Assembly: GCF_902806985.1 (NCBI RefSeq)
Contig: NZ_CADCXY010000004.1
Span: 62,001 to 126,000, forward strand
From: Pseudidiomarina piscicola
GTDB lineage: Bacteria; Pseudomonadota; Gammaproteobacteria; Enterobacterales; Alteromonadaceae
Length of the DNA stretch: 64,000 nucleotides
Reading direction: 5' to 3'
The notes under the pieces were generated by a model. That model did not search any database, was not told where the DNA came from, and saw only the letters and a list, made by a program, of their open reading frames with translations. Both the position numbers and the translations under genes were made by a program. This document shows, one piece after another, positions 18,851-37,623 of this stretch (positions within the stretch are counted from its first letter, which is position 1; every line of letters starts with the position of its first letter).

Positions 18851-19537
18851 TCACACCAACCGCAAGTCCGGCTCTTGTTTATGCGGGTTTGGAAAATCAC
18901 CTTCTTTGGCACCCGGAGTGGCTCCGTCGCAGAGCCCTTTCGCATAACGATACAGGTTGTCGTACAAGAATCGTTCAAAAGGCACAAACTCAGCACTTTT
19001 ACGGCGTTGTTTGTTCACTCGTTTTGTTTCCTGATTAAGCATTTCACAAAAGTGCCAGGCGTGTTCGCTATCGAATAGACGTGGCTTAACATCTCGTTTA
19101 TAAGCTTCTAGCCAAAGCTTTGCATCGGCTAAATGGCCGTTAATGCTCATATCTAAGTTGCGATGGCATTCTGCTACCGGCTTCGTGTTAAATTGCCGCA
19201 CGACTTCGGCAATTTGTGCATCTGTTCGCACAAAACCGCCCATACGAAACCAAGCCAACATATGCTCTAACCATAACGCATCAAAATCCCGCGCAATTTC
19301 ATTCCAGTCCGGCTTTAATACGTAGGGCATGACAATGCTATAGCGGCTATAAGATTCCATCGCAAACACCAACCAGCAAAGCTCATCGCGCACGACATGA
19401 AATTGCCAGCCACATTGCACGCTGTTTGTTACCACTGGCTGTACACCAGGATTCTCGCCGTTCGCATCAGTAAGCCGGGGGAAGTCCAGTTTACATAGCT
19501 TGGTGAGTTGATTTGAGATACTGAATCTGAGTTTCAT
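18851..19537 (-). CDS. DUF6933-type protein
   Basis: A 228-residue protein starting MKLRFSISNQLTKLCKLDFP with QCGWQFHVVRDELCWLVFAMESYSRYSIVMP, the pattern of the DUF6933 N-terminal domain, plus a helical C-terminal extension. Its biological role is unknown. It is 28 bases downstream of the Fic gene and may belong with it in the older island remnant. Confidence 0.7.
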   Translation of the reverse strand: MKLRFSISNQLTKLCKLDFPRLTDANGENPGVQPVVTNSVQCGWQFHVVRDELCWLVFAMESYSRYSIVMPYVLKPDWNEIARDFDALWLEHMLAWFRMGGFVRTDAQIAEVVRQFNTKPVAECHRNLDMSINGHLADAKLWLEAYKRDVKPRLFDSEHAWHFCEMLNQETKRVNKQRRKSAEFVPFERFLYDNLYRYAKGLCDGATPGAKEGDFPNPHKQEPDLRLV

Positions 19538-19565
19538 TGCATTTTGCTGTCCTGTTTATTAGCAT

Positions 19566-21122
19566 TTAAATCTCTTCGTTCATCACCGCAACAACATCAA
19601 TTTCAAATTTATCCTTAATTTCTTCGATTAGGTGGATCGCCAGCTGCTCCAGTTCTTTGAGAATCGGACCATCTACTAGAGCTTCTAATTGCTTACGTTT
19701 GCGATTCGGAACTTCACCACCGTTTTGAATAATAATCGACAAAACCATATCGATTTTAGTGTTCGGCAAGTCCGCATTTTCATTGATAAATTTTTTCAAG
19801 CGATCGAACACGGTAAGTAAGCATACTTCCTTTAGTAAATCATCGGAGATGGCCGTATCCATCATTTCATATACAAACTTTACATGCTCGGTGTAGTCCG
19901 GAAAGCGATACATGTAATCAATATCATTATTGATTACGATTTTATTGGAATGGTCGAATTCGTAATCCAACATCGCCATTATTGGTATCGAAATGGTTTC
20001 AAGAACCCGGTCGTATTTTTGTTGGTTTTTTAGGATCGCAGCAGATATCGGAATAATAAACTTATGCACTGGTTCTCGATGCTTCATGACGTCATGAATC
20101 AGATAGCGATGAATGCGACCATTTCCATCGTCAAATGGGTGAATATAAACTTCACCGAAAGATATCAAAGTTGCATGGAATAATGGGGGAACTGAGCCAT
20201 CGATCATCAAGTTTTCATGTAGCTTAAATAGACCATTCATCATACTTGCTACGTGTTCTTGTTTAGCTCCAACGTAATGAACATCCTCGTCTCGATTCCC
20301 AAACCGTTGAATCGTTGTACCGACATAAATCTCCGATTCACGGTAATCGACCGATTTAAATCTCTCATCCACAATTTGATTCTGAACGTTGATAAGCGAA
20401 TGCTTATTCAACTCATATAAGCCAACATTTTTTATGGCATTTAGGAATCTTTGCATTCGCTGTCGGTTTGGCTTTTCTCTCTCTATCTCCGTCGATGACT
20501 TTGTTTCTTTTGTATAAAGGTAATTAACTGATCGTCCAATCACATCAACTGATAACTGCTCTCCGATGCGCTGCATTTTCGCAAATGCAGTTTTATAAAC
20601 GTCAGCCTCATCAAGTTGACTTATATCAGCTGTTTTTCGGATCGTTGGACAAAATTCGGGTGTACCTAACGCGTTGTTAATAACCCGCGTTCGTTTGTCT
20701 TTCTGCCCATTTCCTAGGGTGTAGTAGAACTCGTCCTCAAACAGTTTTATATAATTCGACGACTTTAAGTCCGGGATATCAAGCTTCCGCCCAGTTAACC
20801 ATTCGTACAGAAACCAGAGGACTCGGTTATATTGACTTGTCGGTTTATCTAAAATAAACGCAGTAAATTCAGTCACATTAATTTTTTTATAAACTGCCGC
20901 AAAGAAATGTAGCCTGATGCCTTGGTTTTTTATTGCCGCATGCATCTGCCAGTAGGGGTTGTCATCGTACTTTAGATGGCCAGGAATTACCTTGCGCTTG
21001 CTACCACCATATTGGATCAACTGTTCCTTTTCCGCGTTTGGATCCTGATAAACCTCCACACCGAGCTTCGGTAGACGTAGATCGTAATGCAGATTGAGGT
21101 AAGCATATCCAACTGGTTTCAT
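19566..21122 (-). CDS. Fic-domain protein (predicted AMP/UMP-transferase)
   Basis: A 518-residue protein with a perfect Fic motif HPFDDGNGR at 328-336 (GEVYIHPFDDGNGRIHRYL), whose His performs nucleotidyl transfer to target hydroxyls. The stretch SSTEIERE (near residue 210) aligns with the inhibitory S/T-x-x-x-E-G/N helix motif, with Arg where Gly/Asn is usual. A long N-terminal part (about 1-190) and a helical C-terminal part (about 400-518) flank the core. The ribosome site is AAAGGACTGCT. A/T-rich codon use differs from nearby core genes, and it lies beside an integrase relic, so it was probably imported. It may act as a toxin or in phage defence. Confidence 0.9.
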   Translation of the reverse strand: MKPVGYAYLNLHYDLRLPKLGVEVYQDPNAEKEQLIQYGGSKRKVIPGHLKYDDNPYWQMHAAIKNQGIRLHFFAAVYKKINVTEFTAFILDKPTSQYNRVLWFLYEWLTGRKLDIPDLKSSNYIKLFEDEFYYTLGNGQKDKRTRVINNALGTPEFCPTIRKTADISQLDEADVYKTAFAKMQRIGEQLSVDVIGRSVNYLYTKETKSSTEIEREKPNRQRMQRFLNAIKNVGLYELNKHSLINVQNQIVDERFKSVDYRESEIYVGTTIQRFGNRDEDVHYVGAKQEHVASMMNGLFKLHENLMIDGSVPPLFHATLISFGEVYIHPFDDGNGRIHRYLIHDVMKHREPVHKFIIPISAAILKNQQKYDRVLETISIPIMAMLDYEFDHSNKIVINNDIDYMYRFPDYTEHVKFVYEMMDTAISDDLLKEVCLLTVFDRLKKFINENADLPNTKIDMVLSIIIQNGGEVPNRKRKQLEALVDGPILKELEQLAIHLIEEIKDKFEIDVVAVMNEEI

Positions 21123-21289: not shown

Positions 21290-21481
21290 TTACCTCAAGT
21301 CGTACCAAACCATCGGCTCAATCACATCAGCAACCTGTTGATGCGCCTGCCGTCGCTCCTCATAGTAATCATACCGGTCATAAATACCTTCTACGCCTTT
21401 CAGGCTATGGTTTATAGCCCGTTCGCCAACGGCGCCGCTGAAACCTAAAGCAGATACTTGGCTACGAAACGGAAAAACCAA
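21290..21481 (-). pseudogene. Tyrosine integrase relic, C-terminal end only
   Basis: The 63-codon frame encodes FRSQVSALGFSGAVGERAINHSLKGVEGIYDRYDYYEERRQ, the last part of a P4-type integrase, including the catalytic Tyr in GIYDRYDY. All N-terminal and core catalytic parts are gone. It is on the same strand as the intact island integrase and sits just outside the left attachment repeat, where the integrase of an earlier insertion into yicC would be expected. Confidence 0.85.
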
Positions 21482-21702: not shown

Positions 21703-21731
21703 AAAAAAGAAAGGGAGCCCAAAGGCTCCCT
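21703..21731 (-). terminator. Intrinsic terminator ending the PRTase/RNA unit
   Basis: On the minus strand AGGGAGCC pairs with GGCTCCCT across a 4-base loop (8 bp), followed by TTCTTTTTTAT. Confidence 0.92.
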
Positions 21732-21938
21732 AAGTTCTTTTCTTACGACCAGCTTAGCTGGAAGGAGAAGCCGCTGCCATTCTCAAACTGCTTTCTACTC
21801 CTTACGAGTTGACCGCAGTAGGTGCTTGCACGGACCCACAAGTCTTTCGACTTGCCTCATTTTTATAGACCGAAGGGGCGTAAACTTGGTCTTGCACACA
21901 TAATAGCCGTTTCGAGTAAAACATTCAAGCAACTAGCA
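21703..21938 (-). ncRNA. Candidate structured RNA downstream of the phosphoribosyltransferase
   Basis: No gene is found in ~235 bases between the PRTase stop and a strong intrinsic terminator on the same strand. The minus strand contains several perfect helices: AGACC/GGTCT (21867-21871 with 21888-21892), CAAGTC-GAAA-GACTTG with a GNRA loop (21839-21854), nested CTACT/AGTAG and ACTC/GAGT (21795-21821), CCAGC-TAA-GCTGG (21749-21761), and the terminator stem (21712-21731). The density of helices and the ending argue for a folded RNA rather than a trailing UTR. I do not recognise an Rfam family. It may be processed from the PRTase message. Confidence 0.6.
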
Positions 21939-22652
21939 TTATAAAGCACTTAGCAAGCAAACAGCTCCAGCGACATTAAACCCACTAGCTTTTAACAGTT
22001 TCGCCGCATTCGAAATAGTTGTGCCGGTGGACAGCAAATCATCGACCAACAATAAGTTTTCAGCTGGTAAGCACTCTAGCAGATCGGTATTTAACGACAA
22101 TGGGTTAAAATAAGGACGTATTTTATTCCTCATTTCCTTGAGGGTTACCAATTCATTCGGATCAAGCTTGGCAAATGTCGCTAGTTGCGACTTTACCTCT
22201 GCTCGATGCTGCCTTTTGACTGCAGCTTGATCAAATCCCGCGATAACTTCCCCAACGGTCGCTTTTTTGAAGATGCTATTGAATATTTCTGCGCCGTTTT
22301 TCCTAGATATTCGACGAGCTAAAATTTCTGCTACAGGATAGGAGGATGGCACCGTTACTAAACCGCCGCACGGAACTCTCTCCATGATTTTATCAAGAAT
22401 GGCGTCGAAACTTGGATTAAATCGCACTAGTTCTCGACTGCGGATCCGAAAACCTTTGGTTTTCTTTAGCGCATATATAAACGGATTACCGTCCCTCTCT
22501 TTATCACCATCTTTTGTTCGTCGGTATACGCTGTAAGTTAAAAGGTTAGGATACTTCTTCAATGCAGGATTTCTGTCAGGGCATGTTACAAGACGTAACT
22601 GATGATCTTCATTTAAAGTCACAAACTTATCTCTTGAAACATCTATACCCAC
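21939..22652 (-). CDS. Phosphoribosyltransferase-like protein of a putative defence unit
   Basis: A 237-residue protein with a type I PRTase fold. The PRPP-binding loop LLLVDDLLSTGTTIS is at 200-214, and a VTVPSSYPVAEILARRI strand-helix stands near residue 97. The N-terminal ~90 residues (YRRTKDGDKERDGNPFIYALKKTKGF) are not those of purine or pyrimidine salvage enzymes or of ComF, which has a zinc finger. The start is GTG 22652 behind AAAGGAATTAGC. Upstream on the same strand are a T-arm-like hairpin and an XRE gene; downstream is the candidate RNA. PRTase proteins occur as effectors of type III retrons, but no reverse transcriptase is present. The reaction and target are unknown. Confidence 0.8.
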   Translation of the reverse strand: MGIDVSRDKFVTLNEDHQLRLVTCPDRNPALKKYPNLLTYSVYRRTKDGDKERDGNPFIYALKKTKGFRIRSRELVRFNPSFDAILDKIMERVPCGGLVTVPSSYPVAEILARRISRKNGAEIFNSIFKKATVGEVIAGFDQAAVKRQHRAEVKSQLATFAKLDPNELVTLKEMRNKIRPYFNPLSLNTDLLECLPAENLLLVDDLLSTGTTISNAAKLLKASGFNVAGAVCLLSAL

Positions 22653-22706: not shown

Positions 22707-22732
22707 TGGTTAAGGGAGGGATTCGAACCCTC
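22707..22732 (-). other. tRNA T-arm-like hairpin between the XRE and PRTase genes
   Basis: The minus strand reads GAGGG-TTCGAAT-CCCTC, a perfect 5-bp stem and the 7-base TTCRANY loop of a tRNA T arm, followed by CCTTAACCA, which resembles a tRNA 3' end with CCA. The acceptor strand would be about two bases short and there is no D arm or anticodon arm upstream, so it is not an intact tRNA. The 11-base GATTCGAACCC (plus strand) recurs at 22764-22774 in the 3' end of the XRE gene. It could be an attachment relic or a tRNA mimic. Confidence 0.55.
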
Positions 22733-22748
22733 TCAAGTGTTCAATTCA

Positions 22749-23848: not shown

Positions 23849-23937
23849 ATTACAGAACTCGTCGAATCAACCTTATTTTATTGATTTCATGTTAGCGATC
23901 GGAGATGGTAAGCACTCTCAGTAACGAAGGGACTGTT

Positions 23938-24492
23938 ATGGGTAGCGGCGTTCACAATAAACTAATAGGACAAATCGGTGAAAACTTAGTTGCGGCCAAA
24001 CTCGGCACACTTGGATATTATGCATCGCCTTATGCCGGTAATGTACCTGGTTTTGACTTGACTGCGGTCGATAGCAAAACACTTTCATCGTTTCCTATTC
24101 AAGTAAAATGCAGTACTGCTAACACCCTTGTGCACTCGCAAATTGACCGTTGGATTGAGACCACTATTGATTCAACTGGCAAATATTTTTTTGGCGAGTT
24201 AATCCACCTCGAGCACCCGAACATGCTTTGGATCATGGTTAATCTACCCCATGGCCAGATTGAGAATGCCCGCTATTTTATATGCCGTGAATCTGATATT
24301 CAGGAGCTGGCTGTCGAGCGTTTTATTGCCTTTATTAAGCGTCATGACTACCGTCGTCCTAACGGTGGCAACTCCAAACAAGCAATTCTCACTCTCAAAG
24401 AACTTGGTAGATATGAAGATAACTGGTCGCTCATTGCGCCAGCTAGTAAGACTATAACAACTCATGATGGAAGGGAATCAAATGACTTATAG
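23938..24492 (+). CDS. PD-(D/E)XK-like small nuclease at the head of the McrBC operon
   Basis: 184 residues from ATG 23938 (GAAGGGA site); an upstream start at 23905 is less well placed. The N-terminal half has GQIGENLVAAKLGTLGYYASP, then PGFDLTAV and FPIQVKCS, the Glu ... Asp ... Gln-x-Lys order of the PD-(D/E)XK fold. The C-terminal half is helical. It overlaps the McrB start by 11 bases, so it is translated with it. It could be an extra nuclease or a processing partner of the McrBC complex. No specific family is recognised. Confidence 0.68.
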   Translation: MGSGVHNKLIGQIGENLVAAKLGTLGYYASPYAGNVPGFDLTAVDSKTLSSFPIQVKCSTANTLVHSQIDRWIETTIDSTGKYFFGELIHLEHPNMLWIMVNLPHGQIENARYFICRESDIQELAVERFIAFIKRHDYRRPNGGNSKQAILTLKELGRYEDNWSLIAPASKTITTHDGRESNDL

Positions 24493-26518
24493 CTCAAATG
24501 GATTCAAAACCTTTCTCCGCAATGAGCGGAAATCCAATGGCGAGGCATATTCAAATAATACGGTTAGCCAGTATGTCTCAGCTGTAAATAGAGCCGCACA
24601 CCATGCAGGTTTTGATTTGTGGTCTTCTCAAAGCGAAGAAGTCGATAACTTTGTTCAAAAGTTTGAACCGGGTCATGAATTTGAAGAATTTGGAGCGCAA
24701 GGTAACAACACCGTCATATCTGCTTTGCGATTGTTGAAAAGATACTTTGCCAATAGCAACAGCTACCTACTCACATGGAATCCTGAGAAATATCACGTTG
24801 GCGGCAATTCGGGTGTAGAGCTAGGGAACGAACAACAGTGGAGTTGCAATAGCACCAAACCACAAGTGGGTGATCGTGTATACCTCATGCAAGTAGGTGT
24901 TGAGCCAAGGGGAATTATTGCAGCTGGTATCGTGACTCAGGAGTCTTTTGAAGACAAAGATTGGGGTGATGAAACCAAAACTAAAAAATATATAAAGTTC
25001 AAACCAGTAGCCGTGCGGAACCCCCCTGAAGCTGGTCAACAGGTCTTAAATCAACTTAATCAACTAGCCCAAGAAACCGGCATTAATTTTAGCTGGAGCC
25101 CCCAAAGTTCTGGTATCAGTATTCCAAATAAAATATCTGATAAATTAGCGAGTTATTGGTTTGATGAAGATAGCTCGGTTGAGGAGAACACAATGACCGA
25201 CAACGCCATCACAAAAGTATCTCAACCGCTTAACCAAATCCTATTCGGCCCCCCTGGCACCGGTAAAACGTTCACAACTATTGAACGCGCTGTGCGAGCT
25301 GCAGAGCCGAATTTCACTTGGTCCAACCGAGATAAACTAAGAACTAGGTACCAAGAGCTTATCCACCAAGGGCGTATTCGGTTTGTCACTTTTCACCAAA
25401 GCTTTAGCTACGAAGATTTTGTGGAGGGGCTTACCGCACATACTGATAACGGAAACTTGGTCTATGAAAAGAGGCTAGGCATCTTCCGACAAATTGTTAA
25501 AGCGGCGAAGGAATACCAAGTTAGCGAGATTAAAAATGCTGCAACCTCATTTGATGAGTGTTGGGAGGCTTTTTTAACCGAATTAGAAGACAGTAATAAA
25601 GGTATCAGCATCACAACGCGCCGTAGCAACTTCACCGTTACAGAAGTTGATGCCAACACCATTCGTTTTGATAAAAGCCAAGGTCAATCGGTTCATACGC
25701 TTTCAGCCACCACATTAGAAGCTGTCTTTAACGGCGAACGAGAAATCAAAGGCGGCTTGCAGCCATATTACGAATCGCTCGTGCGTCGATTAAAAGAAAT
25801 TGGTTCTAAGCTAAACAACAAAAAGGTTGAGCGCCAGAATTACGTGCTCATCATCGACGAGATCAATCGCGGTAATATCTCACGGATTTTTGGTGAGCTG
25901 ATCACACTAATCGAACCATCTAAGCGCTCTGGTGCAACAGAAGCGCTAGAGGTAACACTTCCACTGACTGGCGACCGGTTCTCGGTGCCTGATAACTTAT
26001 ACATCATCGGTACAATGAACACTGCCGACCGTTCACTTGCAGGGCTCGATTTGGCCTTGCGTCGTCGCTTCGATTTCATTGAAATGCCGCCCCTTCCTGA
26101 AGAACTCAAAGGGGTTAGCGTTGACGGCATTGATGTTGAAGAGATGCTCGACGTTATCAATCGCCGAATTACGGCACTACTGGATAAAGACCACTGTATT
26201 GGCCATGCCTATTTTATTCATTTGAAAGACAAATCAGATGTTGTGTTACATGACCTCGCCGAAATTTTTCAGCAGAAGATCATTCCGCTGCTTCAAGAAT
26301 ACTTCTTTGAAGATTGGCAGCGTATCCGTTGGATATTGAATGATCAAAGCAAGTCGAACGACCATGCATTTATCGTGAAAGATGATGCGATTAATTTTGA
26401 TGAGCTGTTCCCCGGCGATGTGCAGCTAAACTCGCGTGACCGGTGGCGATTGAATGAGTCTGCTTTTGAACAGGCCGCATCTTACAAACAGATTTATGAA
26501 ATGGGTAGTGCTGAGTAA
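24482..26518 (+). CDS. mcrB: McrB-like AAA+ GTPase with N-terminal EVE-like domain
   Basis: A 678-residue protein. A helical domain (about 1-90: FKTFLRNERKSNGEAYSNNTVSQYVSAVN) precedes an EVE/PUA-type reader (about 95-195: LLTWNPEKYH ... VGDRVYLMQVGVEPRGIIAAGIV), then the McrB motor. The motor has Walker A GPPGTGKT at 256-263, VLIIDEINRGNISRIFGE, and the McrB signature GTMNTADRSLAGLDLALRRRFDF. EVE domains bind modified bases, so this should recognise modified invading DNA and drive cleavage by McrC. ATG 24482 follows GGAAGGGA. Stop and next start overlap (TAATG). Confidence 0.9.
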   Translation: MTYSSNGFKTFLRNERKSNGEAYSNNTVSQYVSAVNRAAHHAGFDLWSSQSEEVDNFVQKFEPGHEFEEFGAQGNNTVISALRLLKRYFANSNSYLLTWNPEKYHVGGNSGVELGNEQQWSCNSTKPQVGDRVYLMQVGVEPRGIIAAGIVTQESFEDKDWGDETKTKKYIKFKPVAVRNPPEAGQQVLNQLNQLAQETGINFSWSPQSSGISIPNKISDKLASYWFDEDSSVEENTMTDNAITKVSQPLNQILFGPPGTGKTFTTIERAVRAAEPNFTWSNRDKLRTRYQELIHQGRIRFVTFHQSFSYEDFVEGLTAHTDNGNLVYEKRLGIFRQIVKAAKEYQVSEIKNAATSFDECWEAFLTELEDSNKGISITTRRSNFTVTEVDANTIRFDKSQGQSVHTLSATTLEAVFNGEREIKGGLQPYYESLVRRLKEIGSKLNNKKVERQNYVLIIDEINRGNISRIFGELITLIEPSKRSGATEALEVTLPLTGDRFSVPDNLYIIGTMNTADRSLAGLDLALRRRFDFIEMPPLPEELKGVSVDGIDVEEMLDVINRRITALLDKDHCIGHAYFIHLKDKSDVVLHDLAEIFQQKIIPLLQEYFFEDWQRIRWILNDQSKSNDHAFIVKDDAINFDELFPGDVQLNSRDRWRLNESAFEQAASYKQIYEMGSAE

Positions 26519-27843
26519 TGACGTCGACGGTTGTTGTTCGCGAATATGCCTATTTGACCACTGCACCGGTAGTGGTGAACACACTCGATCGCGCACATAT
26601 TAGCGAGTCGGCATTTCGTTGGCTCGTTGAACTTGGGCAGCAATTTCGGCGCAATGGCCTACCGTTATTTGAGCTTGATAGTCAGAAGCTTCTTCGTTTG
26701 GATAATTACGTCGGCGTGCTTGAGTCACCCTGTGGAACGGTGATTGAGGTGCTACCGAAGCACACAACAGAACAAACTTCCGCGGCCGAAGCTCGCGCTT
26801 TGCTAAAACGGCTAATCAAAACCTCAATGCAACTTTCAGTGCGCGAGGCAGACTTTGCCGATGTTGAGCGATTTGAAATGCCGATTCGCGAGTGGCTTAT
26901 TACTTATTTTTTGAGTGAGCTGGAAGTTTTACTAAAGCGAGGTCTGCAGTTCGATTACCAAGTTCGAGAGGAAGAAGCACGCTTCTTGCGCGGCCAAATG
27001 GATATCGCAAAACAACTGCGCCAGCCACCCGGAAAAGCGCATGTATTCAATATTCGCCATGACTTGTTTTTACCGGATAGACCAGAGAACCGTCTTATCA
27101 AATCTGCGCTTGTTGCTGTGTGCTCAGCCACTCAAGACAACGACAACTGGCGGTTAGCTCACGAGATGCTCTCACAACTCCTACAATTGCCCGAATCGTC
27201 GGACCCTAGGGCTGATTTCAAATCTTGGTCAACAGACCGCTTGTTGACGCATTACCGACCAATTAAGCCTTGGTGTGAGTTTATCCTCAACCAACATGTT
27301 CCACTTTCTGTCTCTGGTGGCTGGCGCGGCATAAGCATGCTCTTCCCAATGGAAAAGCTGTTTGAGAACTATGTTGCTGAACAGCTTCGACGAGCCATCG
27401 GCAGCAAGGGCACTGTCAGAACCCAGCTTGCTACCGAGTACCTTTGCCAACATAAGGGCAAAGGAGTGTTTAAGTTAATACCGGATATAGAGGTTGTCAT
27501 TGGTGACAAGCGCTGGATCCTGGATACCAAGTGGAAGCTACTTGATGTATACGATGGTGGTTCAACTTACGGGCTGAGTGAACGGGACTTTTACCAGATG
27601 TTGGCGTATGGAAATCAGCTACTAGGATGCTCGGGTCATTTAATGCTGGTCTACCCTGCCTGGGACAAGTTTCAAGCCTCTAAAAATATTGAGCTATTTC
27701 ATTTTAGTCAGACTTTAACTTTATCCGTATCCAGCTTCTGCCTAACTAAGGACTCATTAGCATCCACAACTGAAGTGTATCGAAAACTCCTGAATAACGA
27801 ACTCAGTGAAGAGGCACATACCTCGAGACGCTCAGCACGTTGA
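26518..27843 (+). CDS. mcrC: McrC-like nuclease subunit
   Basis: A 441-residue protein of the McrC family: an N-terminal beta-rich region (FELDSQKLLRLDNYVGVLESPCGTVIEVLPKH), a helical middle, and a PD-(D/E)XK site in the C-terminal third (KLIPDIEVVIGDKRWILDTKWKLLD, giving the Asp and the D-x-K). A conserved FPMEKLFENYVAEQL comes just before it. It cuts DNA together with McrB. The overlap with mcrB is one base. A gap of 145 bases with no gene separates it from hsdR. Confidence 0.9.
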   Translation: MTSTVVVREYAYLTTAPVVVNTLDRAHISESAFRWLVELGQQFRRNGLPLFELDSQKLLRLDNYVGVLESPCGTVIEVLPKHTTEQTSAAEARALLKRLIKTSMQLSVREADFADVERFEMPIREWLITYFLSELEVLLKRGLQFDYQVREEEARFLRGQMDIAKQLRQPPGKAHVFNIRHDLFLPDRPENRLIKSALVAVCSATQDNDNWRLAHEMLSQLLQLPESSDPRADFKSWSTDRLLTHYRPIKPWCEFILNQHVPLSVSGGWRGISMLFPMEKLFENYVAEQLRRAIGSKGTVRTQLATEYLCQHKGKGVFKLIPDIEVVIGDKRWILDTKWKLLDVYDGGSTYGLSERDFYQMLAYGNQLLGCSGHLMLVYPAWDKFQASKNIELFHFSQTLTLSVSSFCLTKDSLASTTEVYRKLLNNELSEEAHTSRRSAR

Positions 27844-27988
27844 AACAGAAGTGTCTGACTTCAATTCGAATATGTTGTGATACAGACTCAAAGTGATAGA
27901 TTAATTAACAGTAACAAAAGATAGTGTTAACAACTAAGCGAACTGCTACTTGAGCAGGCTCCGAATAAAAGCGAACACAAGGAATGTC

Positions 27989-30900
27989 ATGACCTTCAGT
28001 ACGAATAAATTCAACGAAGATAGCCGGGTCAAAATACCAGCAATACTGCACCTGATGCGCTTAGGCTATCGGTATCTATCACTCAAGGGTCAAACCTGGG
28101 ACTTAGATACCAATATCTTCCCGGATTTATTCAAAGCGGCTATTGGAAAAATTAACCCCGGTATTGAAGATGCCGAAGTAGGCCGTTTATTCGACGATGT
28201 CAAACTGCTGCTTGATAACGAAGACCTTGGCCGTGCTTTTTTTGAGCGCTTGTCTGAACGATCAAACACCAAACTGATCGATTTAGAAAACTTCAACAAT
28301 AACAGTTTTCATGTTGTCACCGAGCTGACTTGTCAGAATGGTGATGAAGAGTTCCGCCCAGATATCACTGTGTTGATTAACGGAATGCCGCTGGTGTTTA
28401 TTGAGGTGAAAAAGCCCAATAACCGCGAAGGTATTCTGGCCGAGCGTGACCGCATCAACAAACGCTTTCAGAACCCTAAATTCAAGCGTTTTGCTAACAT
28501 CACCCAGTTTATGATTTTCTCCAATAACATGGAGTACGACGACGGCGACCCTGAACCAGTACAAGGTGCCTTCTACGCCAGTAGCTCATATAATAAGCCT
28601 GTTTTTAACTATTTCCGCGAAGAAGAAGTATTAAACTTAACCGCGCTGCTTAAACCTTTGCCGGATGAAGATGAACTTAAAGTTTTAAAAGACAATAATC
28701 TGGAAGTGATCCGCAGTAACCCAGAATTTCAAACCAACAAGCAACCCGAGCGCCCAACCAACCGCATTTGTACCTCTTTACTGAGCCGTGAACGCCTAGC
28801 TTTTATCTTGCGCTATGCACTGGCCTATGTATCAGAGTCAGATGGGCTACAAAAGCATATCATGCGCTACCCGCAGTTGTTCGCAACCAAAGCTATTGAA
28901 CAAAAACTAAGCGAAGGTATCAAAAAGGGCATAATCTGGCACACTCAAGGTAGTGGTAAAACCGCTTTAGCCTTTTATAGTGTTCGCTATTTAACCGACT
29001 ACTTCCAAAAACAGCAGATAATTCCAAAGTTTTACTTTATCGTTGACCGGTTAGACCTTCTACAACAAGCACAACGGGAATTTACTGGCCGAGGCCTAAC
29101 CGTGCATATAATTAATTCACGTGATGCGTTTACACGTGATATTAAAGCTACACAGGTGATCCATAACCATTCTGGTAAACCAGAAATTACCGTGGTGAAC
29201 ATTCAAAAGTTTAAAGATGATCCGGATGTGGTTAGTACCAATGACTACAACGTGGCAATACAGCGCGTCTACTTTTTGGACGAAGTGCATCGCAGCTACA
29301 ATCCCAAAGGCAGTTTTTTAGCGAATTTAAGTCAATCAGACAAAAACGCCATCAAAATTGGCTTAACTGGTACACCATTATTGGGTGATGACTACAACTC
29401 GCGTGCGTTGTTTGGCGACTACATTCACAAGTACTATTACAATGCTTCAATAGCCGATGGTTACACTTTGCGCTTAATTCGCGAAGAAATCAGCACACAA
29501 TACAAAATCGAACTACAGAAAGCCCTTGAAGAAGCCGAAGTCAAAATGGGAGATGTGGACCGTAAATTAATATACGCTCACCCAAGCTTTGTAGAGCCCA
29601 TGCTAGCTTATATTGTGAATGACTTTGAAAAAAGCAGAGGTGCTTTGAACGAATCTAGCATTGGCGGGATGGTCATCTGTGATAGTTCAGACCAAGCAAA
29701 GCAGATGTTCGAAATATTCAATGAGGTTTATTCCCAATCACCAATTTTACCGCAAATGTCTGGAGACCAAACACCAGTATTGCAAGAAGCTGCCGAACCA
29801 CCGCCAATCACCTATGGAGGCGCTGCTAAACAAGCACAAAAGGTAAAAAACGCGGCTCTGATTTTGCATGACATAGGCACCAAAGAAGAGCGTAAAGATT
29901 GGGTAGAGGACTTTAAAGCAGGTAAAATCGACTTTCTGTTTGTCTATAACATGCTTCTCACAGGCTTTGATGCTAAGCGGCTGAAAAAGCTATACCTAGG
30001 TAGAGTGATCCGCAAACATAATTTGCTACAAGCCCTTACACGGGTAAACCGCACGTACAAAGATTTCCGCTACGGTTATGTCGTGGATTTCGCTGATATT
30101 CGACAAGAGTTTGATGCAACGAACAAAGCCTATTTTGAAGAGCTACAGTCGGAGTTAGGCGATGAGATGGAGCATTACTCACACCTATTTAAATCTCAGG
30201 AAGAGATCGTACAAGAAATTGAGCATATCAAAGACGTTCTGTTTCGTTTTAATACCGACAACATGGAAGAGTTTTGCAACCAAATCAGCCAAATTCAAGA
30301 CCGTGATACCATTTTAGCGCTGAAAAAGGCCCTCGCCGATGCTCGCAGCCTGTATAATTTGATCCGCTTGCAAGGTGATTATGACTTTCTGGATGAACTG
30401 GATTTTGCCAAGCTCAATGTACTTTACCGTGAAACCAGCAACCACCTAGACTTACTCAACCTTAAAAATGATTTAGAAAGCGGCCAAGATACCAGTACCC
30501 TGCTAAACCGCGCCTTGGAAGACATTATTTTCAAGTTTGTTAAAATTGGCGAAGAAGAACTGGTACTTGCCGACAAGCTTAAAAACACCCTGCGCCAAAC
30601 ACGCGAAGCCTTAGCTAGCAATTTTGACCAACAAGACCCGAAGTTTATAACCTTAAAAGAAGAACTAGAGCGCTTATTTAAGAAGAAAAACTTAAGTGAA
30701 GTCACCCAAGAGGAAATGGTTGCCAATATTGATGCCCTGAATAAAATACACGACCGCGTCAAAGAGCTAAACCGCGAAAACAATCAGCTAAGGCAAAAAT
30801 ACCTCGGCGATGCTAAATACACGCGTATCCATAAACGCCTTCAAGAACGTCAGCGGAGGCAATGTGATATCAGCGAGTCCGAGCGTAAAATATTTGAAGC

Positions 30901-31120
30901 CCTCGCGGGTGTGAAGCAAGATGCTGACGAACAGGTACTCAACAACAGCCAAGTGCTCGATAACGAAAACTACTTCGAGCGCCAGATGATGCCGCTCGTG
31001 ATAGCACGCTTTATGAAAGAGCAAAAGATTAAACTCAACTCCGATGCCTCACGTTATATCAATCACTTGGTCGTCGCCGAATATTTAAAAGAATTTAATA
31101 CCGGCAGCCAAGCTTGGTAA
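27989..31120 (+). CDS. hsdR: Type I restriction endonuclease subunit R
   Basis: A 1043-residue motor-nuclease. The N-terminal nuclease domain has FRPDITVLINGMPLVFIEVKKP (Asp ... E-x-K). The helicase part has Walker A TQGSGKT at 319-325, LDEVHRS, and LTGTPL, with a coiled C-terminal tail that docks on the methyltransferase. ATG 27989 has AAGGA; an upstream TTG at 27950 is open but weaker. HsdR moves along DNA and cuts it when the site is unmodified. hsdM and hsdS follow in order. Confidence 0.94.
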   Translation: MTFSTNKFNEDSRVKIPAILHLMRLGYRYLSLKGQTWDLDTNIFPDLFKAAIGKINPGIEDAEVGRLFDDVKLLLDNEDLGRAFFERLSERSNTKLIDLENFNNNSFHVVTELTCQNGDEEFRPDITVLINGMPLVFIEVKKPNNREGILAERDRINKRFQNPKFKRFANITQFMIFSNNMEYDDGDPEPVQGAFYASSSYNKPVFNYFREEEVLNLTALLKPLPDEDELKVLKDNNLEVIRSNPEFQTNKQPERPTNRICTSLLSRERLAFILRYALAYVSESDGLQKHIMRYPQLFATKAIEQKLSEGIKKGIIWHTQGSGKTALAFYSVRYLTDYFQKQQIIPKFYFIVDRLDLLQQAQREFTGRGLTVHIINSRDAFTRDIKATQVIHNHSGKPEITVVNIQKFKDDPDVVSTNDYNVAIQRVYFLDEVHRSYNPKGSFLANLSQSDKNAIKIGLTGTPLLGDDYNSRALFGDYIHKYYYNASIADGYTLRLIREEISTQYKIELQKALEEAEVKMGDVDRKLIYAHPSFVEPMLAYIVNDFEKSRGALNESSIGGMVICDSSDQAKQMFEIFNEVYSQSPILPQMSGDQTPVLQEAAEPPPITYGGAAKQAQKVKNAALILHDIGTKEERKDWVEDFKAGKIDFLFVYNMLLTGFDAKRLKKLYLGRVIRKHNLLQALTRVNRTYKDFRYGYVVDFADIRQEFDATNKAYFEELQSELGDEMEHYSHLFKSQEEIVQEIEHIKDVLFRFNTDNMEEFCNQISQIQDRDTILALKKALADARSLYNLIRLQGDYDFLDELDFAKLNVLYRETSNHLDLLNLKNDLESGQDTSTLLNRALEDIIFKFVKIGEEELVLADKLKNTLRQTREALASNFDQQDPKFITLKEELERLFKKKNLSEVTQEEMVANIDALNKIHDRVKELNRENNQLRQKYLGDAKYTRIHKRLQERQRRQCDISESERKIFEALAGVKQDADEQVLNNSQVLDNENYFERQMMPLVIARFMKEQKIKLNSDASRYINHLVVAEYLKEFNTGSQAW

Positions 31121-31177
31121 CATTTGCTTCGTCATTGATAACTACGCCGGTAAAACTTATTAGGAAGTAAAAACTAA

Positions 31178-32815
31178 ATGGTTGAATTAGAATTTCAGCA
31201 AAAAACCAAAACTCTGATTGATAGCTTAAAAAGCATTTGCGCCAACTATGGTTTAGGTAACGACGGTAACGAATTTAAAATCATTACCCAAACCTTTTTG
31301 TACAAGTTTTTAAACGACAAATTTGCATTTGAAGCCAAAAAACTGGACGACAACATCGCCACAGCCGATAAGTGGGAAGATGCACTCGCGGCCATGTCAG
31401 AAGACGACCTCGACATGCTGCAACTGCAAATGGGCGGCGATACAGCACGGCTAAAACCGCAACATTTTATCAGCTACCTGTTTAGCCAACAAAACACACC
31501 TGACTTTGCCAAACTTTTTGACGACACGCTAATCGACATAGCTATTACCAATAACGATGTATTCGCGGTAAAAACAGATGGCGGTGCAAAAGTGGTGCTG
31601 TTCGACCGCATCAGCCAATACATTGCAGACGACTCTAAACGCGATGCCTTCTGCCGGGCAATCATCAACAAACTGGTGGAGTTCAGCTTTGAGCGTATTT
31701 TCATCCAAAAATTTGACTTCTACGCCACCATCTTTGAATACCTGATCAAAGACTACAACAGTAATTCCGGCGGTAAATACGCCGAGTACTTTACACCACA
31801 TGCGGTAGCACGCATCATGGCCGAAATCCTAGTTCCAAAAGATCAACGTGGCACAGTGCGCAATGTCAGCTGTTATGATCCATCCGCAGGTTCCGGCACT
31901 TTGTTAATGAACGTGGCTCATGCGATTGGCGAAAACCGCTGTAGCATTTACACGCAGGATATTTCACAAAAATCCTCCAACTTGCTGCGTTTAAACCTAA
32001 TCTTAAATAACTTGGTACACTCCATTCCGAATGTTATCCAGGGTAATACTATTCAACACCCGTACCATAAAGATGGCAAGGAACTGAAACGCTTTGACTA
32101 TATCGTTTCAAATCCGCCGTTTAAGCTGGACTTCAGCGATTTTAGGGATGAACTAGACAGTAAGGAAAACAAAGAGCGCTTTTTTGCTGGCATCCCCAAA
32201 GCGCCAGCGAAAGCCAAAGACAAAATGGCAATCTATTCGCTATTTTTACAACACATTATCACTTCGCTTAAACCTGGAGGCAAAGCGGCTGTCGTAGTCC
32301 CCACCGGTTTTATTACCGCACAATCAGGTATCGATAAAAAAATCCGTGAGCATTTGGTGAAAAACAAGATGCTCGCTGGTGTAGTTTCTATGCCATCCAA
32401 TATTTTCGCGACTACCGGCACTAACGTGTCGATCCTGTTTATCGATGCCAGCAACGATGGCGATGTGGTGCTGGTAGATGGTTCAAACTTGGGTGAAAAG
32501 GTCAAAGACGGCAAAAACCAAAAAACCGTATTAACCGCCGGTGAAGAACAAAAGATTATTGATGTATTTAATGGTAAACAAGCGGTAGAAGATTTTTCTG
32601 TTGCGGTAAGTTACAGCGACATCGAAGCCAAAAATTACTCGTTAAGTGCAGGCCAGTACTTTGATGTCAAAATTGAATATGTGGATATTACTCCAGAGCA
32701 GTTTGCTGAAAAGATGCAAGGCTTTACCAGCAACTTAGATAGCCTGTTTAGTCAATCTCGTGAATTAGAAACGGAGATTAAAAAGCAGTTGGCGGGGTTG
32801 AAGTATGTTATGTAG
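31178..32815 (+). CDS. hsdM: Type I modification methylase subunit M
   Basis: A 545-residue N6-adenine methylase. The SAM motif is DPSAGSGTLLMNV and the catalytic motif NPPF (IVSNPPFKLDF). The N-terminal helical domain (residues about 1-150) and C-terminal helices contact HsdS. AGGAAG precedes the start. It overlaps hsdS by 11 bases, so translation is coupled. Confidence 0.95.
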   Translation: MVELEFQQKTKTLIDSLKSICANYGLGNDGNEFKIITQTFLYKFLNDKFAFEAKKLDDNIATADKWEDALAAMSEDDLDMLQLQMGGDTARLKPQHFISYLFSQQNTPDFAKLFDDTLIDIAITNNDVFAVKTDGGAKVVLFDRISQYIADDSKRDAFCRAIINKLVEFSFERIFIQKFDFYATIFEYLIKDYNSNSGGKYAEYFTPHAVARIMAEILVPKDQRGTVRNVSCYDPSAGSGTLLMNVAHAIGENRCSIYTQDISQKSSNLLRLNLILNNLVHSIPNVIQGNTIQHPYHKDGKELKRFDYIVSNPPFKLDFSDFRDELDSKENKERFFAGIPKAPAKAKDKMAIYSLFLQHIITSLKPGGKAAVVVPTGFITAQSGIDKKIREHLVKNKMLAGVVSMPSNIFATTGTNVSILFIDASNDGDVVLVDGSNLGEKVKDGKNQKTVLTAGEEQKIIDVFNGKQAVEDFSVAVSYSDIEAKNYSLSAGQYFDVKIEYVDITPEQFAEKMQGFTSNLDSLFSQSRELETEIKKQLAGLKYVM

Positions 32816-34061
32816 CTCTTGGACATATGTTCCTGGTAATGAGTATTGTACAAAAATCACCGATGGAACACATGACTCCCCAAAACAAGCTGAGTATGGG
32901 AAACCACTTATCACCTCCAAGCATATAAAGGGTGACGTGATCGATTTTGATACTGCTTACCTAATAAGTGAACATGACTTCAATGAGATCAACAAAAGAA
33001 GCAAGGTTGATCAGTGGGATGTCATTATCAGCATGATCGGGGCTTATTGTGGTTTCTGTTTTATTGAAAGCAATGAAGAAATAGACTATGCCGTAAAAAA
33101 TGTTGGTTTATTTAAAGCTGGCTCTGAGGTTAATGCCAAGTGGCTCTACTACTATCTCAAATCACCAATAGGCAAAGCCCATCTTGATGCAGTGAAAAGT
33201 GGTTCAACACAACCATATATAGCGTTGGGTGCACTTAGGAACCTTCCAATTCTCGTCCCTAAGAAAGATGAAGTTAAGGAAAAAATAGTTGCTATTTTAG
33301 ATGCGATAGATACGAAAGTACGAGTGAATAACCGTATCAACGCCGAGCTGGAAGCGATGGCCAAAACCTTGTACGACTACTGGTTTGTACAGTTTGGCTT
33401 CCCCGATGCCAACGGCAAGCCCTACAAAAGCTCTGGCGGCACAATGGTCTACAACCCAACCCTAAAGCGCGAAATACCGGAGGGGTGGGAAGATTCAACG
33501 ATAGGTGAAATTGAACCCAATATTGTTACAGGGAAAACACCCTCGAAAGATAATCCTGAGTATTTTGGCGGTAATGTGCCATTTATCACAATTGGTGATA
33601 TTCGAGGGAATACATATATCGTTTCCACCGAAGAAACACTTACAGCCAGTGGCGCGGCAACCCAGAAAAACAAATTTTTGCCAGAAGATAGTATCTGTGT
33701 AACCTGTATAGCCAGCCCTGGTTTAGTTGGTTTTGTGACCACACCAGCACAAACAAATCAGCAAATTAACTCTGTAGTTTGTAGTAATAAGATCAGTAAA
33801 TATTATTTGTATTTTGCTATTAAAGGGTACTTTGAGGGAGCAAAAGCTAAGACTGGTAACACTTTCTCAAATATGAATAAAGGTGACTTTAGTGCAATCG
33901 TAATTCTGAAACCATCAGATCAAGTATTACAAGACTATCATCAGAAAGCTTACCCATTATTTGAACAGATAAAGCTCAAGTCATTGGAAAATAAACAATT
34001 GGTTAAGCTCCGCGATTGGCTACTCCCCATGCTAATGAACGGCCAAGTAACAATAAAATAA
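32805..34061 (+). CDS. hsdS: Type I specificity subunit S
   Basis: A 418-residue protein with two target-recognition domains (about 1-150 and 215-385), each followed by a conserved helix: KIVAILDAIDTKVRVNNRINAELEAMAKTLYDYWF in the middle and ENKQLVKLRDWLLPMLMNGQVTI at the end. The repeat of LRD/LYDYW-type helices is the hallmark of HsdS. The recognised sequence cannot be predicted. The frame is intact through both domains. Confidence 0.93.
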   Translation: MLCSSWTYVPGNEYCTKITDGTHDSPKQAEYGKPLITSKHIKGDVIDFDTAYLISEHDFNEINKRSKVDQWDVIISMIGAYCGFCFIESNEEIDYAVKNVGLFKAGSEVNAKWLYYYLKSPIGKAHLDAVKSGSTQPYIALGALRNLPILVPKKDEVKEKIVAILDAIDTKVRVNNRINAELEAMAKTLYDYWFVQFGFPDANGKPYKSSGGTMVYNPTLKREIPEGWEDSTIGEIEPNIVTGKTPSKDNPEYFGGNVPFITIGDIRGNTYIVSTEETLTASGAATQKNKFLPEDSICVTCIASPGLVGFVTTPAQTNQQINSVVCSNKISKYYLYFAIKGYFEGAKAKTGNTFSNMNKGDFSAIVILKPSDQVLQDYHQKAYPLFEQIKLKSLENKQLVKLRDWLLPMLMNGQVTIK

Positions 34062-35814: not shown

Positions 35815-36348
35815 TCACGAAAAATTTTGAATTGCCTTGTAAAAGAAGTTCTTTGTCGCTTTAAACTTCGGCTTTGATGGTGGCTCAGGACTTCCGTGAT
35901 GATTTCCCGTTTCTGCATTTTTTGGGATCGCATTTTTATCTTTCTCTACTTTACGGTCCGCTTTAAACAGCTTGAGTAGCCAATCTGCTGCGTTATTTTT
36001 GCCTTCTCGCTTCGAACGATAACTCCGGCCAAGACTGTCAGATTCCTTGCGATCTTTTAAATACATATCGACCGCCCACTTGCGTAAACAAGTTCTGTAC
36101 TCCTCAAGCCCTTCATGTCTTGCAGTTGCTGCATTTTTAGGTTGCCCTCTCCGTTTTACATTCTCGTCGAAAACTGGCTCAACCGAGTCATAAACAGTGC
36201 CAGCTTTCTGCCGCAGCAATTCAATCTCGCTCCTTAGCAATTCCGCCTCGCGCTCAAACCCAGCATCTTTAACCCGCTGCAAGCTCTGCTCTATTTGCGC
36301 CAACCTGAGTGCATTGGGACCTTTGATAAACTCATCACGTTTACTCAT
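35815..36348 (-). CDS. Island protein of unknown function downstream of the integrase
   Basis: 177 residues from ATG 36348 (GGAGGTAGCG). Highly charged, with a coiled-coil-prone N-terminal part (LAQIEQSLQRVKDAGFEREAELLRSEIELLRQK) and a Lys-rich C-terminal tail. It overlaps the integrase stop by 8 bases, so it is translated with it. No family recognised. Confidence 0.7.
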   Translation of the reverse strand: MSKRDEFIKGPNALRLAQIEQSLQRVKDAGFEREAELLRSEIELLRQKAGTVYDSVEPVFDENVKRRGQPKNAATARHEGLEEYRTCLRKWAVDMYLKDRKESDSLGRSYRSKREGKNNAADWLLKLFKADRKVEKDKNAIPKNAETGNHHGSPEPPSKPKFKATKNFFYKAIQNFS

Positions 36349-37570
36349 CGCTACCTCCATGTATTAATGGTTCAAGAAAATTAGCTACTTTGCCGTTTGC
36401 TTCTCTGCGCTCTTCAAGGTAATCGTATTGATTGTAGACCTTCAAGACACCCCGCAGCTCATGATTCAAGCATCGCTCGGCAATGGCATCTGGCACTTTC
36501 AACTTAGCAAGCAATGTTCGATAGGTTCTGCGTAGGTCATGCACCGTAAAGTGGTCGACTCCAGCTGAACCAAGAACATTTGGGTAGGGCTTTTTCTTGC
36601 TATCAACTTTCTGTCCGAATAGTTTGGCTAACGCATGATTCAACGTATCGTCAGAAATATAGCCTCTTCTTTTGCTTCTTCTGCGCGAAGGAAACACATA
36701 TTCAGAGCCTGCACAGCGCACTTTTAGTTCTTCAATCACGGGTAGCATTTGATTTGGGATCGGCACCGTAATTGGCTTACTGGTTTTGTTCTCGGGAAAG
36801 AACCAAGTCTGGTTCTCTAAATCAATTTGTTCCCACCGCGACGATATGATTTCTGATTTGCGACAACCTAGGTGCAAGAGTAAAAGGCATGCAAGATAGT
36901 TGTCACGAGTGAAGATATCTTGTTGCTCGCGGAAAGTAGCAAATGCCACCTCTATTTCGGTCTCCGATAATGAGCGCTCTCGAGGCGAATAGTCTTGGCC
37001 AACATCGACTCCGGTAAAATAGATCGCTGGATTACTACTGACCAAATTTAGCTTGATGCCGTGGTTAAACATACGCTTCATTATGCTTAGCGCTCGCGCT
37101 GAGGTAGTCTTATTACCTGTCTGCTGCAGCTCATCGAGAACATTGCGAACATCAATCGGTGTAATGTCTTTTAGCGAATATTTGCCCAAGCGGCTCTTGA
37201 GGTAATTACGGTATACGCGCTCGTCATTGCCTGGATGCTTAACGCGGTTCTTTACTGCGCGGTCAAACCAGTCATTAAAAAGATCGTGAACTGTGTGAAT
37301 AGCACCGCCAGTTTCTCGACGACGCTCAAGCTGGGGGTCAATGCCATTCTTAACTTTTGAGCGAATTGCAGCAGCTTGAATCTTAGCGTCAGCCAATGAG
37401 CAGTTCGGATATCCTTCCAGCAAGGTGATGGTCTTGCGCTTGCCCGCATAGGTATATCGCACAAACCATGAAGCAGTACCTTGTTCAATTCTGAAATAGA
37501 GCCCATCACCCACACTTTTCCGAACGTCCTCTCCGGCTCTAAAAAGTGCTTTGATCTGACTACTATTCAT
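36341..37570 (-). CDS. P4-type tyrosine integrase targeting yicC
   Basis: A 409-residue integrase. An N-terminal DUF4102-like arm-binding domain (GDGLYFRIEQGTASWFVRYTYAGKRKTITLLEGYPNCSLADAK) precedes a core-binding domain and the catalytic domain with Arg in HLGCRKSEI, HDLRRTYRT, LNHELRG and the Tyr in VYNQYDY. ATG 37570 follows GGAGATAGTC. It starts about 180 bases from the yicC end, where the right attachment repeat lies, which strongly suggests it inserted the island there. Confidence 0.93.
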   Translation of the reverse strand: MNSSQIKALFRAGEDVRKSVGDGLYFRIEQGTASWFVRYTYAGKRKTITLLEGYPNCSLADAKIQAAAIRSKVKNGIDPQLERRRETGGAIHTVHDLFNDWFDRAVKNRVKHPGNDERVYRNYLKSRLGKYSLKDITPIDVRNVLDELQQTGNKTTSARALSIMKRMFNHGIKLNLVSSNPAIYFTGVDVGQDYSPRERSLSETEIEVAFATFREQQDIFTRDNYLACLLLLHLGCRKSEIISSRWEQIDLENQTWFFPENKTSKPITVPIPNQMLPVIEELKVRCAGSEYVFPSRRRSKRRGYISDDTLNHALAKLFGQKVDSKKKPYPNVLGSAGVDHFTVHDLRRTYRTLLAKLKVPDAIAERCLNHELRGVLKVYNQYDYLEERREANGKVANFLEPLIHGGSDE

Positions 37571-37623
37571 GACTATCTCCATGTGGTGACAAAACCTAAA
37601 GATGGAGACCCTATAAACTCTTT

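Follow-up and report, generated by a model that had tools for sequence, protein, structure and literature searches.

A structured RNA family encoded behind phosphoribosyltransferase genes and among phage tRNA genes

We analysed a 64,000-nucleotide stretch of the Pseudidiomarina piscicola genome (contig NZ_CADCXY010000004.1, positions 62,001 to 126,000; hereafter the window, in whose own numbering its coordinates are given) and found on its minus strand, at about 21703-21893, a structured RNA encoded 46 nt downstream of a gene for a 237-aa phosphoribosyltransferase (PRTase). The RNA is a member of a widespread structured family that Rfam does not cover in the window or in the 31 further loci scanned, and its structure is under selection. 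We favour, with moderate confidence, the reading that the two genes form a module in which the RNA is the antitoxin and the PRTase the toxin, acting in the manner of type III toxin–antitoxin (TA) systems, and that phages carry the RNA alone as counter-defence. A toxin and its antidote are suggested because no complete Pseudomonadota PRTase was found without the RNA, the RNA is kept where the gene is not, the setting is mobile and phages hold stand-alone copies. More tentatively, a double-pseudoknot RNA may cage the PRTase toxin; unrelated phages, several of them giant, may repeatedly have acquired the RNA into their tRNA genes, from which tRNA processing frees it; and conjugative elements may keep it as immunity after a toxin swap. 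We infer the toxicity of the PRTase, its binding to the RNA and the expression of the RNA. The work contributes an RNA family that is well supported and whose partner can be tested and, if our reading is true, extends RNA antitoxins past ribonuclease toxins to a nucleotide-metabolism enzyme, giving an RNA-caged metabolic-enzyme toxin.

A structured RNA family with two pseudoknots

The first-pass annotation had described 21703-21938 as an unrecognised folded RNA with a GNRA hairpin and an intrinsic terminator. All the motifs it named lie on the minus strand where it placed them, including CAAGTC-GAAA-GACTTG (21839-21854), CCAGC-TAA-GCTGG (21749-21761) and two copies of TCGTAAG, and the terminator, a GGGAGCC/GGCTCCC stem followed by a T run (21703-21730), agrees with both sequence and fold (seven of the stem pairs were read by eye). 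The RNA itself fills about 21703-21893 of that interval, whereas the remainder includes a sigma70-like promoter site on the same strand (21900-21928: TTGAAT, 17 nt, TATTAT, 7 nt ahead of helix P1) with 9 of 12 matches, against a shuffled mean of 7.1 at this site. The predicted transcript is thus about 190 nt long, both ends being placed from the promoter and terminator positions. The stretch matches the host genome (2.51 Mb, 16 contigs) once, at itself. Folding of the single sequence gave -75.3 kcal/mol (z -2.04, with 5 of 200 shuffles as good), which is weakly above chance; the stretch alone would therefore not settle the structure, and comparison does.

An alignment of 34 copies (A2) analysed with RNAalifold gave helices P1, P3 and P4 and a helix joining CCGC to the P5 loop, while a pseudoknot from the P1 loop (PK1) was found by inspection. 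A2 was used in place of alignment A3, which was set aside because MAFFT had misplaced P1; A2 rows in which gaps had been misplaced within P3 and P5 were retained and counted as unpaired. The covariance model built from the 34 rows, window included, holds P1, P3, P4 and P5 only, with pseudoknots excluded (model R1). Searching the first 54 sources with R1 returned 43 matches, namely the 34 training rows, 8 loci nearly identical to a training row or to the window, and one divergent new copy (L003, 49 bits); all later finds in genomes and phages lie outside the training set. Each locus gives one R1 match, the RNA being a lone unit of about 121 positions without repeats.

Aligning 57 copies to R1 showed that all 29 pairs, pseudoknots included, have changed on both sides, with 93.0% of cells paired. 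The covariation score was 0.715, compared with 0.219 ± 0.009 in shuffled controls and at most 0.121 when partners were slid by 1 to 3 columns. Scored separately, the nine pairs of the pseudoknots, which are absent from the model, gave 0.493 against 0.201 ± 0.015 when shuffled, and pairing reached 99.1% of cells in the second pseudoknot (PK2) and 88.0% in PK1. The window RNA belongs to this family, having P1, P3, P4, P5, PK1 and PK2 with compensatory changes. Conserved structure among relatives, which the first-pass annotation had set as its own check, is therefore present far above both the shuffled and the slid controls.

In the window, the conserved core spans 21763-21892 (R1 match of 91.6 bits, a score by construction, the window being a training row). 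Covariation supports the P1 hairpin (21867-21892; 21887-21892 with 21867-21873), P3 (21787-21819; 21815-21819 with 21787-21791), P4 (21797-21809; 21806-21809 with 21797-21800, loop GUAAG, 97.8% of cells paired) and P5 (21765-21784; 21780-21784 with 21765-21769), whose loop carries one side of PK2. PK1 (21834-21879) joins the P1 loop at 21876-21879 to 21834-21837 through covarying pairs that were not used in model building, and PK2 (21771-21833) joins CCGU at 21830-21833 to GCGG of the P5 loop at 21771-21774, as both the RNAalifold helix and covariation indicate. The GAAA hairpin that the first-pass annotation emphasised exists (P2, 21839-21854), but in the alignment it is variable, missing from many relatives and outside the core of P1, P3, P4, P5 and the two pseudoknots; the conserved loop is instead GUAA(R) of P4, that is, the first TCGTAAG copy. 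The CCAGC-TAA-GCTGG hairpin is, by sequence, an optional P6 (21749-21761), followed by TCGTAAG; a similar hairpin was seen by eye at the same place in several relatives and is lacking in the jumbo phages XbC2 and Kaldavass.

No family among the 4227 of Rfam 15 reached its gathering threshold over the RNA in the window. All matches at E ≤ 10 fell far below gathering, and we rejected MicX, which matched the other strand at 19.5 bits against a threshold of 75. Thirteen other loci had no Rfam match over the RNA (one PK-repBA lay elsewhere in L042), and 18 further loci gave tRNAs only, none over the RNA. Compensatory changes, the lack of an Rfam match and the promoter-like site just upstream together bear out the description as an unrecognised folded RNA with an intrinsic terminator; the pseudoknots, the PRTase partner immediately 5′ and the phage copies had escaped that first reading. 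The records we looked at carry no RNA annotation at these sites, plasmid gene tables listing no RNA genes. We found no description of such an RNA, or of a PRTase with an RNA antitoxin, in the literature searched, whose coverage excluded preprints and most subscription papers and leaves novelty unproven. In the accessible part of the DefensePredictor paper (PMC13092281), a PRTase is mentioned solely in a figure legend, from which membership of the same family could not be told.

Linkage of the RNA to a phosphoribosyltransferase gene

The PRTase gene (21939-22652, minus strand, GTG start) encodes a likely toxin with a C-terminal PRTase motif; its phosphoribosyl pyrophosphate (PRPP)-binding motif is LLLVDDLLSTGTT. 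Pfam Pribosyltran matched the protein at 8e-6 and 25.7 bits, slightly under the 26.3-bit cut-off, and PADLOC returned ShosT (1.6e-4) and PsyrT (5.3e-3); ShosT was matched, weakly, by 11 of 12 PRTases. The AlphaFold2 model, made with 21 aligned relatives, reached pLDDT 93.5 and pTM 0.88. Its closest solved fold was ComF (7p0h; Z 11.7, 171 residues at 4.3 Å), and the ShosT structures 8zvd and 8zvc both scored Z 8.9 (158 and 166 residues at 3.6 and 3.8 Å, respectively).

Using tBLASTn, we found relatives of the PRTase in 33 of 72,556 plasmid records and in 9 of 50,697 phage records, all of the latter being Lak phages. We read 14 of the plasmid neighbourhoods and one of the phage neighbourhoods, and a scan of genome contigs added 36 loci, giving 51 PRTase loci, of which 43 are from Pseudomonadota. 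The DNA behind the gene held the same RNA repeatedly. At all 36 Pseudomonadota loci where one frame covers at least 231 of the 241 profile positions and the DNA downstream is readable, the RNA lies behind the gene on the same strand. The four loci with a fragmented PRTase keep the RNA (L034, L036, L039 and L065), two with a truncated PRTase are without it (L040 and L079), and one contig that stops 30 nt past the gene (L058) was left outside the count. A seeming counterexample, genome G294 (PRTase match 4.8e-4), proved to have a complete PRTase followed by an RNA variant without P4, which scored 24.2 bits (E 1.2e-5) in an unfiltered search; since filtered surveys missed it, filtered genome surveys undercount the RNA. 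This shortened natural variant (L196:2207-2300, plus strand), lying behind a complete PRTase, shows that the P4 helix is possibly dispensable. PRTase and RNA distances correlate across 36 loci (Mantel r 0.747, reached by 0 of 9999 permutations).

The Lak megaphages of Prevotella thus encode a PRTase of the family, and the one read, MK250024.1 (L044:3001-3771), has no recognisable RNA. Two Bacteroidota PRTase loci (L074 and L078) share, by eye, a GTAGATAATTCCGA-like string in the intergenic DNA downstream, with a terminator in L074; this is perhaps another RNA partner. Of the 15 plasmid and phage neighbourhoods, the 13 with annotation show no gene upstream of the PRTase that is common to different lineages, plasmid gene tables being incomplete, and we accordingly rejected an upstream protein antitoxin.

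Linkage and co-divergence suit any functional pair, and the RNA could instead be an activating cofactor, guide or substrate of the PRTase, with phage copies serving as competing sponges. PRTases use PRPP and could modify RNA, and a compact double-pseudoknot RNA could serve as substrate or scaffold. We consider this unlikely: with an obligate cofactor, loss of either partner would be harmless, whereas the PRTase is found lost or broken while the RNA stays and none of the 36 testable Pseudomonadota loci has a complete PRTase without the RNA, the pattern of a toxin that is retained only alongside its antidote.

A small RNA adjoining a likely toxin gene could also point to a type I-like module, in which base pairing between the RNA and the PRTase mRNA would prevent translation. 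This is the least probable of the alternatives weighed here, as the RNA is encoded on the same strand, and the region from -60 to +90 of the assumed PRTase start was no more complementary to the RNA than to shuffled RNA (mean z -0.05, 12 loci). The absence of complementarity beyond shuffled, together with a structure kept by compensatory change, argues for action on the protein over antisense action.

In the PRTase-linked RNAs, the best sigma70-like match just before P1 averaged 8.43 of 12, compared with 6.98 in shuffled sequence, and 21 of 40 had at least 9 matches. The 16 RNAs without a PRTase showed no promoter excess (7.12 versus 7.06 shuffled; at least 9 matches in 4 of 16). These controls were shuffles of the upstream sequence that preserve base composition alone.

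The RNA beside other toxin genes and in phages

Members of the family occur on plasmids, integrative and conjugative elements and chromosomes of many Pseudomonadota, including Escherichia coli. With stricter filters, R1 hits came from 4 of 394 genomes in the order, 2 of 369 in the class (the window's own genome included in each) and 10 of 140 in another family of the same order. The DNA of the window locus had no match in E. coli, where other RNA subtypes were present in 2 and 1 of 5426 genomes.

Eleven genomes besides that of the window allowed us to ask which gene precedes the RNA. It is a PRTase in five (L085, L142, L143, L144 and L146); elsewhere it is a PBECR4 nuclease (L086 and L147), VapC (L148), ParE (L084, about 100 nt off) or DUF6630 (L145), and L087 has the RNA with no obvious preceding gene. 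L146 and L086 share their flanks: a 1618-nt stretch that opens 6-7 nt ahead of the RNA is 99.1% identical, and two blocks further upstream show 87-88% identity; between these flanks lies the PRTase in L146 and the PBECR4 nuclease in L086. On our reading, this same-site toxin swap shows an addiction module caught with its antidote retained. Short PRTase matches in four genomes (G074, G377, G847 and G849) covered 34 to 78 of 239 positions at E 1.3e-5 or weaker and were of the sort that housekeeping PRTases produce; in G791, fragments of a PRTase of the family lie on a different contig (4.3e-15), and G659 gave no PRTase match. We read the RNA behind other toxins as immunity retained after toxin replacement, although the RNA may have a wider role. 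By eye, mobile elements of one family (L143, L144, L148 and L084) repeatedly encode, near the RNA, a small protein that looks secreted (EGGICHVEAEYFYPGVWEKYG), and L142 has a relative of it.

A BLAST search with one RNA led to the jumbo phages XbC2 and Kaldavass, where the RNA lies between tRNA-Gln and tRNA-Gly and scores 75.0 and 81.8 bits with R1, respectively. We extended this to viral contigs with four pattern scans, each followed by R1, which matched 5 of 20, 6 of 10, 8 of 22 and 1 of 5 loci; the rest were dropped, among them two at 13 bits (L101 and L102) and four from the last scan that are one coding stretch with a coincidental pattern match. L154 and L152 recur between scans, and L149 is the contig of L121. 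Of the 20 RNA-bearing viral records, 14 have the RNA at the side of a tRNA gene, never more than 211 nt away (L095, L096, L103, L105, L109, L152, L154, L157, L169, L176, L178, L180, L185 and L186, the last match being cut by the locus end), and in 9 of these the RNA core lies within 6 nt of the tRNA gene. Two records have it behind AbiEii (L110 and L115), two behind a PRTase (L121 and L156), one in a conjugative element without PRTase (L158) and one near a gene that looks by eye like a terminase gene (L183). No PRTase of the family was found in the 14 tRNA-side records, many of which are fragments; a match of 34 residues within a 460-aa frame of the L169 contig (E 2.4e-4) was not counted. The nearest tRNA gene is tRNA-Gly(TCC) or tRNA-Gln(TTG) in L095, L103, L105, L109, L152, L154, L157 and L186, and neither of these in L169, L176, L178, L180 and L185.

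When 13 tRNA-side copies were aligned alone, 23 of the 29 pairs had changed on both sides, with a covariation score of 0.709 against 0.220 ± 0.023. That the RNA could be a cis-acting 3′ end of the PRTase mRNA, acting as stabiliser, attenuator or terminator, would fit its same-strand position behind the gene and its closing terminator; structured stand-alone copies near phage tRNA genes without a family PRTase, and a promoter signal of its own, make this highly improbable. On a rough tree of 62 RNAs, built on about 120 columns and without examination of branch support, the 13 tRNA-side copies need 7 state changes, compared with a mean of 12.0 and a minimum of 9 in 500 shuffles. Fewer changes than random suggest that related phages share the RNA, yet that there were several acquisitions.

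The variety of neighbours raises the alternative that the RNA is a general module for unrelated toxins, for instance a decoy that mimics tRNA or a tRNA-damage sensor, with the PRTase merely its commonest neighbour. Two genomes have the RNA directly after PBECR4, two viral contigs have it after AbiEii, and one genome each has it after VapC, ParE and DUF6630; colicin-like nucleases, VapC and AbiEii relatives act on tRNA, and the phage copies adjoin tRNA genes. We nonetheless give this little credence. VapBC, ParDE and AbiE have protein antitoxins, and AbiEi- and MazE-like genes were seen upstream at such loci; the promoter signal is missing from RNAs without a PRTase, and the RNA matches no tRNA or other Rfam model. 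Among the eight non-phage RNAs without a PRTase, moreover, seven branch within clades that also contain PRTase-linked RNAs, which makes the swap look secondary; the eighth, L087, groups with the jumbo phages (branch support not examined).

Under the favoured toxin–antitoxin reading, the PRTase would, by analogy with ShosT, either upset the nucleotide pool or use PRPP to modify a nucleic acid. The RNA, transcribed from a promoter of its own, would bind the folded enzyme and hold it inactive, a protein–RNA mode and not an antisense one. As in ToxIN and ShosTA, a phage that shuts down host transcription or degrades RNA may cause the RNA to be lost before the enzyme, so that the cell stops growing or dies. 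Phages might counter this with a copy of the RNA placed among their tRNA genes, to be released by tRNA processing, and the RNA may persist as immunity on conjugative elements whose toxin is gone. If this is true, part of the phage tRNA-array cargo is counter-defence RNA, which bears on why phages keep such arrays and makes them a place to seek RNA counter-defence genes.

Several observations weigh against this reading. The linkage count includes near-identical loci and thus represents fewer independent cases, joint inheritance alone would yield the same Mantel correlation, and a clear promoter match is absent from 19 of the 40 PRTase-linked RNAs. PRTase relatives in Bacteroidota, Bacillota, Fibrobacterota and a Lak phage had no recognisable RNA at 8 of 8 loci: unfiltered R1 returned nothing above 7.4 bits at seven, and the eighth, L081, which has masked bases downstream, was searched with filters. 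Viral contigs yielded 24 PRTase relatives, many matching at the C-terminal motif alone, and of the 13 searched for the RNA one had it (L121). These non-Pseudomonadota and viral PRTases indicate that the enzyme can exist without this RNA. In the fold comparison, ShosT is level with ordinary PRTases, many of which lie within 1 Z. The RNA is also found behind AbiEii, VapC, ParE, PBECR4 and DUF6630, some of which are toxins that already have a protein antitoxin, and a PRTase-specific antitoxin gives no direct explanation of this, and the phage copies near tRNA genes could have another purpose.

Genomic setting and relation to known systems

In the window, the gene next upstream of the PRTase encodes a 95-aa helix-turn-helix (HTH) protein. 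On the minus strand at 18851-21122, a Fic protein resembling the PADLOC candidate PDC-S24 (5e-152) lies beside a match to PDC-S63 (4.5e-12, DUF6933-like), a further candidate defence pair adjoining the RNA. The plus strand at 23905-34061 carries a McrB-like AAA gene and the gene after it, and behind these, judging from the translations, a type I restriction-modification set. By eye, a 63-aa frame at 21290-21481 (minus strand) is similar to the C-terminus of the tyrosine integrase encoded at 36341-37582 (minus strand), as if marking an older insertion edge of the island beside the RNA, and 22712-22745 (plus strand) resembles the T-arm half of a tRNA gene, possibly an attachment-site remnant; no tRNA was called in the window. 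The RNA/PRTase module looks as though it is located in a defence island.

We compared the module with known systems. Type III retrons likewise combine a PRTase effector with a structured non-coding RNA in phage defence (PMC12548924). No reverse transcriptase was found among the eight neighbouring window proteins scanned, and none is annotated on the 5.4-kb Acinetobacter plasmid L034; we therefore rejected a retron reading. ShosTA and PsyrTA have a PRTase toxin, a role that we propose for the window protein, ShosT being among its nearest folds. ShosT, a PRTase that is also a pyrophosphatase, is described as upsetting purine metabolism and as being triggered by T7 Gp0.7 (PMC12593503), and such an activity might, by analogy, extend to the window PRTase. 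The antitoxin ShosA, in contrast, is a DNA-binding, DprA-like protein, whereas the sole recurrent neighbour seen here is an RNA; no ShosA-like gene is annotated in the 13 neighbourhoods with (incomplete) gene tables, and the upstream gene in the window encodes the HTH protein.

RNA antitoxins outside the ToxN family have a precedent in AbiF/RCd22, which pairs a non-ToxN toxin with a structured RNA that has its own promoter and terminator, binds the protein and acts in cis and in trans (PMC12373285). There, the RNA lies upstream and carries two abiF motifs (RF03085), and the protein is AbiF; Rfam found no abiF motif in the window or in the 31 scanned loci. AvcID, a type III system, has a deaminase toxin and thus an RNA antitoxin for a nucleotide-metabolism enzyme (PMC10511110); the enzyme differs from ours.

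The type III TA systems ToxIN, CptIN, TenpIN and AbiQ share with the module a small, structured, pseudoknotted RNA near a toxin gene, an abortive-infection setting and mobile elements. For a phage-borne antitoxin RNA, there is a precedent in pseudo-ToxI, an antitoxin-RNA mimic that phage PhiTE carries (PMC3475682). Unlike the ToxIN RNA, which consists of tandem repeats upstream of the toxin, the RNA described here is downstream, single-copy and provided with a promoter signal of its own, and its partner has a PRTase fold and PRPP motif in place of an endoribonuclease of the ToxN/AbiQ fold. By the features tested, the module falls outside the ToxIN superfamily, ShosTA and the retrons, and it probably works like ToxIN.
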